Shown piece by piece: positions 22,836-55,555 of a stretch of 64,000 nucleotides of DNA. This DNA comes from Cyrtodaria siliqua (Eukaryota; Mollusca; Bivalvia; Adapedonta; Hiatellidae), in the NCBI GenBank assembly GCA_037043455.1, contig JAWPHD010010228.1:1-64000 (forward strand), given 5' to 3'. Position numbers and translations under genes: made by a program. Below the pieces are notes generated by a model. That model was given only the letters and a program-made list of their open reading frames with translations. It did no database searches and was not told where the DNA came from. Position 1 is the first letter of the stretch, and each line of letters begins with the position of its first letter.

Positions 22836-23670
22836 ACTGTGTTACAACTCTGCCTGGTCATTCAATGAAAATTAGCATATCCGACTGGAGCATTTTAAGC
22901 AAAGTCTTGCAATGAAATCCAGTGTAACATTCAGTCGATATAGGTCACAGAATGTACAAAACTGTCCCATACCAGTGCCAACCACTCCTAGTGAGGTACA
23001 GTATGTATGTATGAAGCCCACAAATGTAGTTGCATCTGAGATCCGAGCATTTTTATGTCCGTTATGGAAATGTAACAAAAAAAATCCCTGCAGTTCACGC
23101 ATCAATACAACTGCTTGTATTGTAAATCATTCTATAATTTTGATTAGAAAGTGAATAACATCGGGATTTTCTTTATCTGAAAAAGAAAGAAAATAAACAG
23201 ATCAATGTTTCGGTTATGTACCCTGTGAGAAGTACTCAAGTCTACCATTTAGGGTACAATGTACATACTTTATGTAACTTAAGCGTAATCCAGAAGAAAT
23301 TGTGTTTAACACTAATTGTGTGTTGGGGTTCATTTGAGTTCTATATTTTCCAATGTAACATGTGATTACTAATGTTATGTGGTAACTGTCGAGTTCTTCA
23401 GTGATTCCTAGTGCAGAGTAACTGTTGAGTTCCTTATTTGCCAATGTAATTTGTGTTTTCTAAGGCCGAGTATTCCCAGTCAGTACTGTTTCACGATATG
23501 CCACTTCTGTATTACCACGTTATTACCCTTCTGTGTCCTTATCTGGCCACATACAAGACTGAGAAGCCTATATTAGACCCAAGTCCCTATGAACAAGGTC
23601 TGGGTTTGAGGGCTGACAATGTTTTGAGGATAGGATATGGAAACAAAACTGAATTGGATGATTAACACCT
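22836..23670. other. Unassigned
   Basis: No confident exon. It lies downstream of the last recognised CP2-gene exon on the minus strand and could contain the missing last exon, but nothing decisive was found. Confidence 0.35.
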
Positions 23671-27289: not shown

Positions 27290-27432
27290 CTGGTCAGTGA
27301 GCAGAATGTGTATTGCAGAGGGCCCCTGTACCAACGTGTCTCCAATCTGGTACTGCGTTACCTTGAATGTCTCCGAGATCTTGCTTATCATCTCCTGGCT
27401 GGTCAACTGTTCCAGATACACAGCATGGTACA
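27290..27432 (-). CDS. TFCP2: CP2-family gene, C-terminal oligomerisation exon (last one recognised)
   Basis: Acceptor TGTGTATTTCAG, donor CAG|GTACTA. Two bases complete a Val codon; then 47 residues run from YHAVYLEQLTSQEM to GPSAIHILLTDQ, phase 0 at the end. This matches the C-terminal region of TFCP2/UBP1 proteins, which mediates dimer or tetramer formation. The YHA(I/V)YLE and QGP..IH(I/V)L motifs are the family signatures. The family continues for about 25-30 residues, so at least one further exon is missing. The acceptor is the final unit of a 22-bp array that repeats it. Confidence 0.9.
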
Positions 27433-27800
27433 CTGAAATACACAGCAGGGTACACCTAAATACACAGCAGGGTACACTAAAATACACAGCATGGTAAATT
27501 TACACAGCTACACTGAAATACACAGCATGGTAAATTTACACAGCTACACTAAAATACACAGCATGGTAAATTTACACAGCTTGGTACACTGAAATACACA
27601 GGACAGCATGGGACACTGAAGTGCACAGCATGGTACACTGAAATACACAGCAGTGTATACTGAAATACACAGCAGTGTATACTGAAATACACAGCAGTGT
27701 ACACTGAAATATACAGCAGGGTACACTGAAATACACAGCCAGGCAACTCTGAAATACACAGCAAGGTAAACTGAAATACATGGTTCACCAAAATACATAT
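27417..27800 (-). repeat. 22-bp minisatellite made of the exon's 3' splice site
   Basis: On the minus strand the unit is TGTACACTGCTGTGTATTTCAG, present about 17 times with variants. The real exon at 27432 begins TGTACCATGCTGTGTAT directly after GTATTTCAG. Each unit therefore holds an acceptor plus the exon's opening bases. About ten units keep TTTCAG; others have TTTAG or TTTTAG. Open frames here are artefacts of the repeat. Confidence 0.9.
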
Positions 27801-28505
27801 ACACAGCCAACCTGTGCTGGGTTCTAGACACATATAAAGTAAAGTTTGCCTACCTGTGCTGGGCTCTTGACACATATAAAGTAAAGTGTACCTACCTGTG
27901 CTGGGTTCTTGACACATATAAAGTAAAGTCTGCCTACCTGTGCTGGGCTCTTGACACATATAAAGTAAAGTTTACCTACCTGTGCTGGGCTCTCGACACA
28001 AATAAAGTTTACCTACCTGTGCTGGGCTCTAGACACATATAAAGTAAAGTTTGCCTATCTGTGCTGGCTCTTGAAATATATAAATTTAAAGTTTGCCTAC
28101 CTGTGCTGGGCTCTTGAAATATATAAATTTAAAGTTTGCCTACCTGTGCTGGGTTCTTGACACATATAAAGTAAAGTCTGCCTACCTGTGCTGGGCTCTT
28201 GACACATATAAAGTAAAATTTACCTACCTGTGCTGGGCTCTTGACACAAATAAAGTTTACCTACCTGAGCTGGGCTCTGGACACATATAAAGTAAAGTTT
28301 GCCTACCTGTGCTGGGCTCTTGAAATATATAAATTTAAAAGTTTGCCTACCTGTGCTGGACTCTTGACACATATTAAGTCGAAGTTTACCTACCTGTGCT
28401 GGGCTCTTGACACATATTAAGTCAAATTTTGCCTACCTGCTGGGCTCTTGACACATATTAAGTCAAAGTTTGCCTACCTGTGCTGGGTTCTTGACACATA
28501 TAAAC
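27800..28505 (-). repeat. 42-bp minisatellite made of the exon's 5' splice site
   Basis: On the minus strand each unit reads TATGTGTCAAGAGCCCAGC, ACAG|GTAGGCAAAC, TTTACTT, about 16 copies with 36-46 bp variants. The upstream exon (28478-28527) ends TATATGTGTCAAGAACCCAG, CACAG|GTAGGC, so each unit repeats the exon's last 20 or so bases and its donor. A 42-bp unit is 14 codons (G-RQTLLYMCQEPST) without a stop, so use of a later donor would add in-frame repeats. Confidence 0.9.
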
Positions 28506-28527
28506 AGTAAGACGTGGTCTGACATTT
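28478..28527 (-). CDS. TFCP2: CP2-family gene, 50-bp exon
   Basis: Acceptor TTTGTTATTGCAG, donor CACAG|GTAGGC. It completes an Arg codon, encodes NVRPRLTVYMCQEPST and leaves one base that makes Val with the next exon. The RPRLT(I/V)Y(V/M)CQE motif is diagnostic for the TFCP2/UBP1 region between the SAM-like domain and the oligomerisation domain. Its 3' end is the first unit of the 42-bp array just downstream. Confidence 0.88.
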
Positions 28528-38035: not shown

Positions 38036-38867
38036 TTTTTAGGCACTCATCCTGAACTAGCATAATGTGAATATTGGGCACTCACCCTGAACTAGCATAA
38101 TGTGAATATTAGGCACTCGCCATGCATTAGCATAATGTAAATATCAGGCACTCACCCTGAACTAGTATAATGTAAATATTACGCACTCGCCCTGAACTAG
38201 CATAATGTAAATATCAGGCACTCACCCTGAACTAGCATAATGTGAATATCAGGCACTCACCCTGAACTAGCATAATGTGAATATTAGGCACTCACCATGC
38301 ATTAGCATAATGTAAATATCAGGCACTCACCCTGAACTAGTATAATGTAAAAATCAGGCACTCACCCTGAACTAGCATAATGTGAATATTAGGCACACAC
38401 CATGAACTAGCATAATGTAAATATCAGGCACTCACCCTGAACTAGCATAATGTGAATATCAGGCACTCACCCTGAACTAGCATAGCGTGAATATCAGGCA
38501 CTCACCATGAACTAGCACAGCGTGAATATCAGGCACTCACCCTGAACTAGCATAATGTGAATATTAGGCACACACCATGAACTAGCATAATGTGACTATT
38601 AGACACACTCACCCTGAACTAGCATAATGTAGATATTAGGCACTCACCATGAACTAGCATAATGTAGATATTAGGCACTCACCATGAACTAGCATAATGT
38701 AGATATTAGGCACTCACAATGAACTAGCATAATGTAGATATTAGGCACTCACCATGAACTAGCATAATGTGAATATTAGGCACACACCATGAACTAGCAT
38801 AATGTAGATATTAGGCACTCGCCCTAGCTAGCATAATATAAATATTAGGCACTCACCCTGAACTAGC
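38036..38867 (-). repeat. 35-bp minisatellite carrying a 5' splice site, about 24 copies
   Basis: On the minus strand the unit reads CACATTATGCTAGTTCAGG then GTGAGTGCCTAATATT. The upstream exon (40889-40960) ends CACATTGTGCAAGTTCAGG|GTAAGTG, so the units are copies of the exon end with its donor. The array is split by the 38868-40744 insertion and resumes at 40745-40888. Confidence 0.88.
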
Positions 38868-41029: not shown

Positions 41030-43212
41030 CACAGGTAATAACAATGGAGTGGATATATTTACAGGTAATCAGGATATAGTGGATATACAGGTAATCAGGA
41101 TGTAGTGGAAATATATACAGGTAATCAGGATGTAGTGGATAATCCTGATGGAGTGGACATATATACAGGTAATCAGGATGTAATGAAAATATATACAGGA
41201 AATCAGGATGTAGTGGAAATATATACAGGAAATCAGGATGTAGTGGAAATATATACAGGTAACCAGGATGTAGTGGATAATCCTGATGGAGTGGACATAT
41301 ATACAGGTAATCAGGATGTAATGAAAATATATACAGGAAATCAAGATGTAGTGGAAATATATACAGGTAATCAGGATGTAGTGGATAATCCCGATGGAGT
41401 GGACATATATACAGGTAATCAGGATGTAATGAAAATATAAACAGGAAATCCGGATGTAGTGGAAATATATACAGGAAATCAGGATGTAGTGGAAATATAT
41501 ACAGGTAATCAGGATGTAGTGGATATATATGCAGGAAATCAGGATGTAGTGGACATATATACAGGTAATCACAATGGAATGCACATATATACAGGTAATC
41601 AGGATGTAATGAAAATATATACAGGAAATCAGGATGTAGTGGAAATATATACAGGAAATCAGGATGTAGTGGATATATATGCAGGAAATCAGGATGCAGA
41701 GGACATATATACAGGTAATCACAATGAAGTGGACGTATATACAGGTAATTAGGATGTAGTTGATATATATACAGGTAATCAGGATGTAATGGATATATAT
41801 ACAGGTAATCAGGATGTAGTGGATATATATACAGGTATTCATGATGCAGTGGACATATATACAGGTAATTATGATGGAGTGGACATATATATATACGGGT
41901 AATCATGATGGAGTGGACATATATACAGGTAATCATGATGGAGTGGACATATATACAGGTAATCATGATGGAGTGGACATATATACAGGTACTCGCGATG
42001 GAGTGGATGTATATATACAGGTAATCATGATGGAGTGGACGTATATACATGTAATCACGATGGAGTGGACATATATACAGGTAATCAGGATGGAGTGGAC
42101 ATATATACAGGTAATCATGATGGAGTGGACATATATACAGGTAATCATGATGGAGTGGACGTATATACAGGTAATCACGATGGAGTGGACATATATACAG
42201 GTAATCAGGATGGAGTGGACATATATACAGGTAATCATGATGGAGTGGACGTATATACAGGTATTCATGATGCAGTGGACATATATATACAGGTAATTAC
42301 GATGGAGTTGACATATATACAGGTAATCAGGATGTAGTGGATATATGTACAGGTGATCAGGATGGAGTGGACATATATACAGGTATTCATGATGCAGTGG
42401 ACATATATACAGGTAATTACGATGTAGTGAACATATATACAGGCAATCATGATGGAGTGGACATATATACAGGTGATCATGATGGAGTGGACATATACAG
42501 GCAATCATGATGGAGTGGACATATATACAGGTGATCAGGATGTAGTGGACATATATACAGGTAATCAGGATGTAGTGGATATATATACAGGTTTTCATGA
42601 TGCAGTAGACATATATACAGGTAAATTACGATGGAGTGGACATATATACAGGTAATCATGATGGAGTGGACATATATACAGGTAATCATGATGGAATGGA
42701 CATATATACAGGCAATCATGATGGAGTGGACATATATACAGGCAATCATGATGGAGTGGACATATATACAGGTATTCGCGATTGAGTGGATGTATATATA
42801 CAGCTAATCATGATGGAGTGGATGTATATATACAGGTACTCGCGATGGAGTGGATGTATATATACAGGTACTCGCGATGGAGTGGATGTATATATACAGG
42901 TACTCGCGATGGAGTGGATGTATATATACAGGTACTCGCGATGGAGTGGATGTATATATACAGGTAATCACGATGGAGTGGACATATATACAGGTAATCA
43001 CGATGGAGTGGACATATATACAGGTAATCACAATGGAGTGGACATATATGCAGGTAATCATGATGGAGTGGACATATATACAGGCAATCACGATGGAGTG
43101 GATGTATATATACAGGTAATCACGATGGAGTGGATGTATATACAGGTAATTATGATGGAGTGGACGTATATACAGGTAATCAGGATGCAATGGACGTATA
43201 TACAGGTAATCA
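41030..43212. repeat. 30-bp minisatellite, about 70 copies
   Basis: The unit is CATATATACAGGTAATCATG then ATGGAGTGGA, with local higher-order blocks at 41100-41440 (GTAGTGGATAATCCTGATGG recurring about every 150-180 bp) and 42780-42960. Because 30 is a multiple of three and the unit lacks stops in several frames, long spurious frames appear on both strands (up to 341 codons). These are not genes. On the plus strand every unit contains ACAG|GTAATC. Confidence 0.92.
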
Positions 43213-43882
43213 CAGTGCTCAAAGAAAATTATTTTAAGAGACAGGCCCAGGGCTTGTTGCTTCTGAAAATGGACAGGCCCCGATTTGAAATGGACAGGCC
43301 CTGATTTGAAATGGACAGGCCCTGATTTAAAATTGAAAGGTCCAATATTTTGTTCTTATTGGAAATGTGTCTTTATTCACTTTTATAGCACACATTTGTT
43401 ACGTATGTATTAATCAAGCTCAGAACCTCCTCTGACTAGATTTTTCTTTTTGCTACCACTTTATGCACCCTGGTCAGCGGACTTATTTACCATTTCGTTT
43501 AAAATATGTTAGAATAGAATATTACATAGTAATTTATAACCAATGCAAAGGAGAGTACTAGCACTTTTGCCAAACGATAATAATCAGAGCCGATCGACTT
43601 GGTGAAACAGGAGCTAAACTTGGAGCCAAATTTTTAATCAGGTTTTATGAGACTATCAGAGCCTCCTCTGGCTATATTTTTTCTTTTTGTCACCACTTTC
43701 TCCAAGTAAAGAATTAGGAGCCTAGACTAGAATTCATTTAAAAGTAGGATTCCAGGAACTCCTTACACCTTAAATAATGAATAGAAATATACTTTATATC
43801 TGTATTTATACATATACAGTACATATATATTTTTCTTTCCACCAACATGTATTTGTAAAGGACAGTTTTTCTTATTTGATTA

Positions 43883-44933: not shown

Positions 44934-45225
44934 AATCATGATGGAGTGGACGTATATACAGGTAATCATGATGGAGTGGACATATATACAGGCAATCATG
45001 ATGGAGTGGACATATATACAGTAATCACAATGGAGTGGACGTATATACTGGTAATCGAGTGGACGTATATACAGGTAATCATGATGGAGTGGACGTATAT
45101 ACAGGTAATCACGATTTAGTGGACATATATACAGAAATCACAATGGAGTGGACGTATATACTGGTAATCGAGTGGACATATACACAGTAATCACAATGGA
45201 GTGGACATATATACAGGTAATCAAT
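44934..45225. repeat. 30-bp minisatellite, continuation
   Basis: About nine further units of the array, with several shortened copies (ACTGGTAATCGAGTGGACG), on the exon side of the insertion. Confidence 0.88.
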
Positions 45226-52940: not shown

Positions 52941-52944
52941 TACT

Positions 52945-53219
52945 GAAAACATCAACCAGTCTCATGTAAGGACCAAACAAACTTCATGTGGCATAATAAC
53001 AGTATTATTTACTGGAAACATCAACCAGTCTGATGTATGGACCAAACAAACTTCATGTGGCATAATAACAGTATTATTTACTGGAAACATCAACCAGTCT
53101 CATGTAAGGACCAAACAAACTTCATGTGGCATAATAACAGTATTATTTACTGGAAACATCAACCAGTCTCGTTTATGGATCAAACAAACTTCATGTGGCA
53201 TAATAACAGTATTATTTAC
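52945..53219 (-). repeat. 69-bp minisatellite beginning at the exon's 5' splice site, about 4 copies
   Basis: On the minus strand the intron starts GTAAATAATACTGTTATTA, and every unit repeats this sequence (preceded by TTTCCA in the internal units). The 69-bp step was measured directly. The unit is 23 codons with no stop, so failure to splice at the first donor would extend the protein in frame. Confidence 0.88.
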
Positions 53220-53288
53220 CTTCTCTGTACCAGTTCTTTTGTCCATCTTTTCTCTGTCTGTTTTGTGTTTTCTGTCCGCTCCTTTGGG
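53220..53288 (-). CDS. TFCP2: CP2-family gene, end of DNA-binding domain
   Basis: Acceptor GTGTTTTACCAG, donor AGAAG|GTAAAT. It encodes PKGADRKHKTDREKMD and KRTGTEK, phase 0 on both sides. The PKGADRKxKTDREKMxKR block is almost invariant in TFCP2/UBP1 proteins and lies at the C-terminal edge of the CP2 DNA-binding domain; its basic residues are consistent with nucleic-acid contact or nuclear targeting. Confidence 0.95.
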
Positions 53289-54093: not shown

Positions 54094-55266
54094 TCAATTA
54101 AGGGAGCTACTAGTACCATTTCTATGAAGTCTTATGTGTGACCCGACTGGGCTACTAGTATTATTTCTATGAAGTCTATGGTGTGACCCGACTGGGCTTC
54201 TAGTACCATTTCTATGAAGTCTATGGTGTGACCCGACTGGGCTACTAGTACCATTTCTATGAAGTCTATGGTGTGACCCGACTGGGCTACTAGTACCATT
54301 TCTATGAAGTCTATGGTGTGACCCGACTGGGCTACTAGTATTATTTCTATGAAGTCTATGGTGTGACCTGACTGGGCTACTAGTACCATTTCTATGAAGT
54401 CTATGGTGTGACCCGACTGGGCTACTAGTACCATTTCTATGAAGTCTTAGGTGTGACCCGACTGGGCTACTAGTATTATTTCTATGAAGTCTATGGTGTG
54501 ACCCGACTGGGCTACTAGTACCATTTCTATGAAGTCTATGGTGTGACCCGACTGGGCTACTAGTACCATTTCTATGAAGTCTGGTGTGACCCAACTGGGC
54601 TACTAGTACCATTTCTATGAAGTCTATGGTGTGACCCGACTGGGCTACTAGTACTATTTCTATGAATTCTTTGGTGTGACCCGACTGGGCTACTAGTACC
54701 ATTTCTATGAAGTCTATGGTGTGACCCGACTTGGCTTCTAGTACCATTTCTATGTTCTATGGTGTGACCCGACTGGCTACTAGTACCATTTCTATGAAGT
54801 CTATGGTGTGATCCGACTGGGCTACTAGTACCATTTCTATGAAGTCTTTGGTGTGACCCGACTGGGCTACTAGTACCATTTCTATGAAGTCTATGGTGTG
54901 ATCCGACTGGGCTACTAGTACCATTTCTATGAAGTCTATGGTGTGATCCGACTGGGCTACTAGTACCATTTCTATGAAGTCTTTGGTGTGATCCGACTGG
55001 GCTACTAGTACCATTTCTATGAAGTCTTTGGTGTGACCCGACTGGGCTACTAGTACCATTTCTATGAAGTCTATGGTGTGATCCGACTGGGCTACTAGCA
55101 CCATTTCTTTGAAGTCTTTGGTGTAACCCGACTGGGCTACTAGTACCATTTCTATGAAGTCTATGGTGTGATCCGACTGGGCTACTAGTACCATTTCTAT
55201 GAAGTCTATGGTGTGATCCGACTGGGCTACTAGTACCATTTCTATGAAGTCTTTGGTGTGACCTGA
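54094..55266. repeat. 45-bp minisatellite, about 26 copies
   Basis: The plus-strand unit is TAGTACCATTTCTATGAAGT, CTATGGTGTGACCCGACTGG, GCTAC, with two sub-types (ACCCGAC and ATCCGAC) segregated to the left and right halves. It starts about 36 bp after the donor at 55302. Frames of up to 217 codons arise because 45 is a multiple of three; they are not genes. Confidence 0.92.
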
Positions 55267-55301
55267 ATGGGGATGCTTCATGACCTTTAATTTACTCTTA
55301 C

Positions 55302-55555
55302 CTTAAATGATTTTATCTGGCAGGATGCACAGTGGATCAGTTTTGAGCTCTCCTCCTCCGAAGCGCGAGTTTCAATCTGTATACGGAATGGTACTCCCTT
55401 CTCTCCGCCATGTTTCTTAGCGGTGAATTCCGTACTAATACAGTTCACTTTCACATGTATGCCACACTCCGTGGTTGGGTCCCAAATAAAATCCGCAGCG
55501 TTTAACTGAGTAGGCTCGATCATCACATTAATTAATCCATATGACAAGGGAATAT
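55302..55555 (-). CDS. TFCP2: CP2-family gene, DNA-binding domain exon (most 5' recognised)
   Basis: Acceptor AACACCTTTCAG, donor TTTAAG|GTAAGA. After two bases finishing an Asp codon it encodes 84 residues. Key motifs are EPTQLNAADFIWDP, NCISTEFTAKKHGGEKGVPF, RIQIET and HCASCQIKSFK. These are the conserved core of the CP2 (grainyhead-superfamily) DNA-binding domain, and the HGGEKGVPFR signature marks the CP2/LBP-1 branch, not grainyhead. CP2 factors bind paired CNRG-type sites as dimers or tetramers in the nucleus. The N-terminal part of the domain lies on upstream exons that I could not find up to 64000. Confidence 0.96.

Follow-up and report, generated by a model that had tools for sequence, protein, structure and literature searches.

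Amphioxus genes can carry minisatellite-like duplications that cover an intron/exon boundary at the donor or the acceptor side; these have been described as mirages in Adh3, in the globin genes BflGb6 and BflGb9, in troponin C and in PGBD5 (PMC3087553, PMC3902484; these and the papers below are cited from the available part of each). AG or GT is present in many, not all, of the units, and unit number differs between haplotypes, with 3 and 6 repeat units in haplotypes of BflGb6 (PMC3087553, PMC3902484). In human segmental duplications, internal tandem repeats at exon-intron boundaries alter gene structure, many of them with alternative transcripts (PMC2812944). Here we describe a structure of this kind in a bivalve mollusc, Cyrtodaria siliqua (assembly GCA_037043455.1, 2.88 Gb in 26,948 contigs). 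It fills an intron of a TFCP2-type (Grh/CP2) gene, the 3' part of which lies on the minus strand of a stretch of 64,000 nucleotides (contig JAWPHD010010228.1, positions 1 to 64,000; hereafter the window). The intron (27433..28477, minus strand) is 1,045 nt long, and 1,020 nt of it (98%) lie within two tandem arrays, leaving 25 of 1,045 bases as non-repeat sequence according to Tandem Repeats Finder (TRF). The arrays are quite probably a pair of mirage-type minisatellites, one for each end of the intron, that grew by tandem duplication at exon edges which were tolerated rather than targeted.

The upstream exon (28478..28527, minus strand, 50 nt) comprises NVRPRLTVYMCQEPST and the first base of a split codon, as indicated by its open frame and by homologues. 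The downstream exon (27290..27432, minus strand, 143 nt) begins with the split codon for V, continues as YHAVYLEQL...LLTDQ and belongs to a GRHL1_C domain. The donor array (27806..28504, minus strand, 42 nt x 16.8, TRF score 992) begins within the exon tail, the copy in the exon being its first unit, and the acceptor array (27416..27780, minus strand, 22 nt x 16.2, TRF score 296) stops within the exon head, the copy there being its last unit. In the donor units, the exon tail TATGTGTCAAGARCCCAGCACAG is in most cases followed by GTAGGC or GTAGGT, and unit lengths are 37, 41, 42, 43 and 44 nt, 42 nt being usual. The acceptor unit consists of TTCAG and of a stretch similar to the exon head TGTACCATGCTGTGTAT, which takes up approximately 17 of its 22 nt, so that even the bases directly before the true acceptor resemble copied exon. 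Both arrays hold exon sequence together with a splice site; that is, their units span the exon-intron boundary. The initial annotation of the window had described the intron as built from copies of its own two splice sites, and the two arrays bear this out. Its figure of about 16 donor units is correct for those with GT, to which a 17th unit reading CAG/ATAGGC has to be added, and its figure of about 17 acceptor units comes down to 14 AG-bearing units, mostly of 22 nt, the difference being accounted for by partial units without AG. The internal match (16 units) was 87% on the donor side and 73% on the acceptor side, which we judge to be far beyond chance for matches between two copies.

Donor units 5-8 matched units 11-14 at 93-100%, indicating a block duplication within the donor array. 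An assembly artefact might be suspected since the TFCP2 locus is present as a single copy in the assembly, where no second place was found for the donor array (one candidate region scored). This explanation is extremely improbable: the units differ by point changes and indels and have an ordered block structure, and the same anatomy, with diverged units, is found at independent loci described below.

The scarcity of non-repeat sequence and the presence of exon sequence in both arrays would also suit an intron that was created by tandem duplication of an exon piece bearing AGGT, rather than an old intron that was overgrown, and intron gain by tandem duplication is a published model (PMC3087553). 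In contrast, each array copies an exon piece of its own, so that one founding duplication does not account for both ends, and we consider such an origin improbable for this intron. In intron gain by tandem genomic duplication, a single duplication is said to make an intron inside an exon. The TFCP2 intron resembles that process in having a tandem duplication that carries splice signals and differs from it in having two arrays, one copied from each end of the same intron.

The exon edges 28478 and 27432 are backed by a reading frame that stays open across the adjoining exons, by Pfam domains and by homologues, and they are the outermost copies of their respective arrays. When the 16 donors were joined to the 14 acceptors in all 224 combinations, only the outermost pair (donor 1 with acceptor 14) gave a join that was open and in frame, and a stop codon was present in the other 223. 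Joins from inner donors are closed because of an in-frame TAA (28458..28460, minus strand) at intron bases 18-20, which any transcript using a donor other than the first would meet, only six extra codons lying past the true donor. The spacing between the CQE and YHA motifs was common to 13 of the 13 homologues read, variant residues allowed for, and the join of the outermost donor and acceptor reproduced it exactly. These findings point to the outermost pair as the one that makes the TFCP2 protein, and the use of the outer sites by the RNA is inferred from that protein. The true edges are thus the outermost units, as the initial annotation had proposed. Its suggestion that a shift of donor adds in-frame YMCQEPST repeats is ruled out by the TAA at 28460-28458 and by the stops in 223 of the 224 joins; the donor unit, which it had called stop-free, is so in the TRF consensus only, and the unit adjoining the exon contains the TAA and lengths vary from 37 to 44 nt. 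A cassette that adds peptide repeats by choice of an inner site was accordingly rejected, the outermost pair being the only open join.

Eleven exons of the host gene were located between 55555 and the stop at 23144 (minus strand), with one continuous frame in two blocks across 10 of the 11. An exon found late (45465-45371, minus strand) is absent from the TFCP2 edge counts below (19 edges) and from the assembled protein. That protein matched 1,759 TFCP2 proteins at E <= 0.001, with named molluscs among the best within the 120 matches listed, and the Pfam domains of the gene are GRHL1_C (6e-14) and SAM_3 (2.9e-6); a sequence search of the PDB returned no relevant match. In a 14-row tree, the protein from the window formed a long branch and paired with P0001 among the molluscs with a support of 96/98. 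P0001 is probably a transcript product, because its source contig has only 2,164 bases.

The arrays may have started with a tandem duplication across each exon-intron border, by slippage or unequal exchange, in which the exon tail and donor would have been copied on one side and the acceptor and exon head on the other. Later duplications of single units and of blocks would then have enlarged both arrays until the intron was filled. Duplications of this kind would arise across the introns of the genome and be removed from coding sequence, and those that cross a border would survive, their inner sites being ignored or yielding stop-bearing transcripts. Such copies could be tolerated because the outermost copy can still yield the old mRNA. 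The two-ended array most likely has no function.

As in the amphioxus mirages, the units of the TFCP2 intron span the boundary, most of them keep GT or AG, and the cluster has the real boundary at its edge. At a myosin locus, unit number differs between two near-identical contigs that are taken as haplotypes. Unlike the amphioxus cases, the host is a mollusc and not a cephalochordate, and both ends of one intron are involved, with 98% of it filled. Where BflGb6 has 3 and 6 units, the TFCP2 intron has 17 + 14 splice-site copies. Somatic instability has reportedly been observed for the amphioxus Adh3 mirage. The human boundary repeats are likewise minisatellite units at exon-intron boundaries with variable copy number, and differ, as far as the available part of the paper describes them, in that the sole open join of the TFCP2 intron is the old one (PMC2812944).

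Recurrence of such arrays in the genome was assessed at myosin and kinesin exon edges. The myosin-head sample came from at least 79 matches (65 of 327 candidates scored), with 41 stretches fetched, and the kinesin sample from at least 127 matches (122 of 329 candidates scored), with 20 fetched. The myosin stretches were rows 1-28 (row 4 inside L047 with two others), 30, 32, 34-36, 38-42 and 44-46. Rows 29, 31, 33, 37 and 43, presumed to be copies, were passed over, and later rows were left out except those in L047, which was fetched first for an odd-looking frame figure and was not a blind pick. L050, L052, L056, L061 and L063 were excluded because they are near-identical copies, L065 and L066 were treated as one, and the acceptor of L049 was left unassigned. 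The kinesin picks went roughly down the list, passing over some rows, among them presumed copies. L091 and L095, being near-identical, were removed, and no assignment was made for the L088 donor or the L102 acceptor. To assign edges, scored candidates were judged by eye. A junction copy was defined as an ungapped copy of the edge-centred 30-mer, identical at 20/30 positions or more, 12-130 nt away, and intron positions were those at least 60 nt from an edge.

In the myosin sample, junction copies were present at 8/75 edges, 557/2,279 intron positions and 1/622 exon-interior positions. At a threshold of 22/30 the corresponding counts were 6/75, 514/2,279 and 1/622, and removal of the six edges of L047 left 7/69 edges with junction copies. 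L070 and L075 passed only at 20/30, L070 being judged real by eye and L075 borderline. The kinesin sample gave 1/34 edges, 131/841 intron positions and 2/268 exon-interior positions, and the TFCP2 gene 2/19 edges and 348/2,396 non-exon positions. For myosin and kinesin together, the amounts were 9/109 edges compared to 688/3,120 intron positions (22%) and 0.3% of exon-interior positions, rates that are descriptive since positions inside one array are not independent. By this description, junction copies are less common at edges than in the deeper intron and far more common at edges than in coding sequence; given the lower level at edges than in the deeper intron, splice sites do not appear to be what array formation is aimed at.

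Clear donor arrays in the sample were those of L047 (L047:1464-3498, G000:C2769, 80 nt x 25), which copies the myosin exon's own tail and donor, L077 (55 nt x 6), L086 (58 nt x 2), L057 (68 nt x 2) and L064 (G000:C5244:75058, 29 nt x 2.3). Clear acceptor arrays were those of L072 (54 nt x 3.2), L070 (21 nt) and L094 (54 nt x 3.4). A stop past the true donor was reached within 12, 0, 18 and 7 residues in L047, L077, L086 and L057, respectively, and within 12 or 2 residues in the two open frames of L064. The 29-nt donor-border duplication of L064 is absent from the sister myosin exon L060 (C3465:43387). This duplication appears to be young, and its second copy has GG, not GT. In L093 (G000:C5212:95967), an array of 32 nt x 8 ends 4 nt before the kinesin exon, and one copy is present in L091 and L092, which are near-identical; the array possibly multiplies the branch-point region.

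The L072 exon is carried by two near-identical contigs, C1291 and C11390 (L072, L108, L109, L110). Upstream of the exon, the 54-nt unit was present in 3.2 and 7.2 copies, a 78-nt unit in 6.0 and 2.1 copies, and ATCCAG acceptors numbered 7 and 8, in C1291 and C11390, respectively. Most simply the two contigs are haplotypes, but they may instead be recent paralogues. For many myosin and kinesin exons a near-identical partner lies on another contig, which suggests that parts of the assembly contain both haplotypes. A genome-wide donor-triplet pattern gave 603 + 509 matches compared to 297 + 106 for the reversed control and was not used, because the places listed fell on two contigs only.

Other arrays were present in the window. 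A second donor-edge array (52941..53219, minus strand, 69 nt x 4) begins at the first intron base (GTAAAT) past the exon ending at 53220 and copies the intron side only. The array at 54106-55271 (45 nt x 26) starts 31 nt past the donor that follows the CP2 exon ending at 55302, and its 45-nt unit does not obviously contain the donor. The arrays at 41031-43213 and 44934-45223 have related 30-nt units and lie in TFCP2 intron, with no exon edge within 100 nt on either side. The array at 38039-38867 (35 nt x 24) has a donor-like CAGGGTGAGTG in its minus-strand unit; it was rejected as a copy of a donor edge, as no recognisable exon was found before it in the three frames read.

Several observations weigh against the reading of the arrays as tolerated at exon edges and without function. 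The first concerns their location: an array lies no more than 35 nt from 5 of the 19 TFCP2 edges (p 0.09 when all edges were shifted as a set, p 0.05 when they were placed independently), a weak hint of more than passive overlap. This proximity, together with the array that begins at the first intron base, would be expected if splice borders seeded arrays themselves, through the AG/GT motif, R-loops or transcription-linked breaks that start tandem duplication there. In contrast, overlap between arrays and edges was at chance in the window, with 3/19 edges in or within 1 nt of an array compared to 1.95 expected (p 0.32), and the descriptive counts above show junction copies to be rarer at edges than in the deeper intron. 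Arrays aimed at edges were rejected on these two results, and we regard seeding as very improbable.

The other observations concern splice signals and their use. The pairing energy with U1 was -10.7 or -11.3 kcal/mol for 15 donors, including the true one, which was at -10.7 with six copies better; weak pairing was limited to the innermost GT copy (-6.9 kcal/mol) and the AT copy (-4.0 kcal/mol). The 14 inner donors that pair equally or better agree with the initial annotation in that many copies carry usable-looking signals. RNA folding gave the true donor and acceptor no more accessibility than the copies and was rejected as a selector of the site. Donor strength alone therefore does not predict the outer choice. 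In addition, an intron-proximal donor is favoured by SRSF1 or by an enhancer between two donors (PMC5585400), and the choice of the outer donor by the spliceosome, as deduced from the protein, is puzzling. All 26 copies in L047 kept the donor GT, which ranked 1/45 among dinucleotide positions. No stop interrupts the frame in the 45 residues read before the L072 acceptor; in that myosin gene inner acceptors could add in-frame repeats, and outer-only splicing is not forced there.

The inner sites might instead act as a splicing rheostat, competing with the true ones and sending a share of the TFCP2 transcripts into stop-bearing, degraded products, with unit number setting the share and the dose. 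The strength of the inner donors is consistent with such an effect, as are the stop that comes at once past the true donor and the variable unit number at one other locus, the L072 myosin. A precedent is human TERT intron 6, in which the exon-skipped isoform requires nine or more 38-bp repeats (PMC3948165). The TFCP2 arrays are similar to that variable number tandem repeat in being an intronic minisatellite in pre-mRNA with a possible effect on splicing, and differ from what the available part of the paper describes in that their units include splice sites, the true ones of which did not stand out in folding. However, the splice signals of the TFCP2 units were not clearly better conserved than the rest of the unit, the donor 9-mer ranking 9/35 and the acceptor 7-mer 6/16 among windows and the GT 4/25 among dinucleotides, and even with the L047 rank no clear sign of preferential keeping emerged. 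Amphioxus mirages are reported, in the available part of PMC3087553, without interference in regular splicing. Junction copies are also common in the genome and thinner at edges than deeper in the intron, for which no function is needed. Overall, a regulatory effect of the arrays in the TFCP2 intron found no support and we consider it unlikely; two mirage-type arrays tolerated at the exon edges are the reading that we prefer.

No mirage-type structure in a mollusc was found among the papers listed in a literature search in which most subscription journals were beyond reach. The available parts of work on C. elegans minisatellites near alternative exons (PMC4039745) and on gastropod hemocyanin (PMC7931591) offered no direct parallel. 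Among the papers listed, mirages were described from amphioxus only, with a human relative (PMC2812944); the TFCP2 intron is a new member of this known kind, in which both intron ends are involved at once, and the counts above are a first rough tally of such edges in this genome.

These findings show that intron ends can be rebuilt from exon sequence, as in the acceptor unit with its exon-head portion, and gene predictors can easily choose the wrong copy at such edges. If the inner sites do divert transcripts, the diverted share would grow with unit number, and an unstable number would amount to heritable variation in TFCP2 dose; this could apply to many genes, since junction copies were present at 9 of the 109 myosin and kinesin edges tested. 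Each of the mirages that recur in this mollusc genome is a natural experiment in how the spliceosome chooses one border among many near-identical ones.
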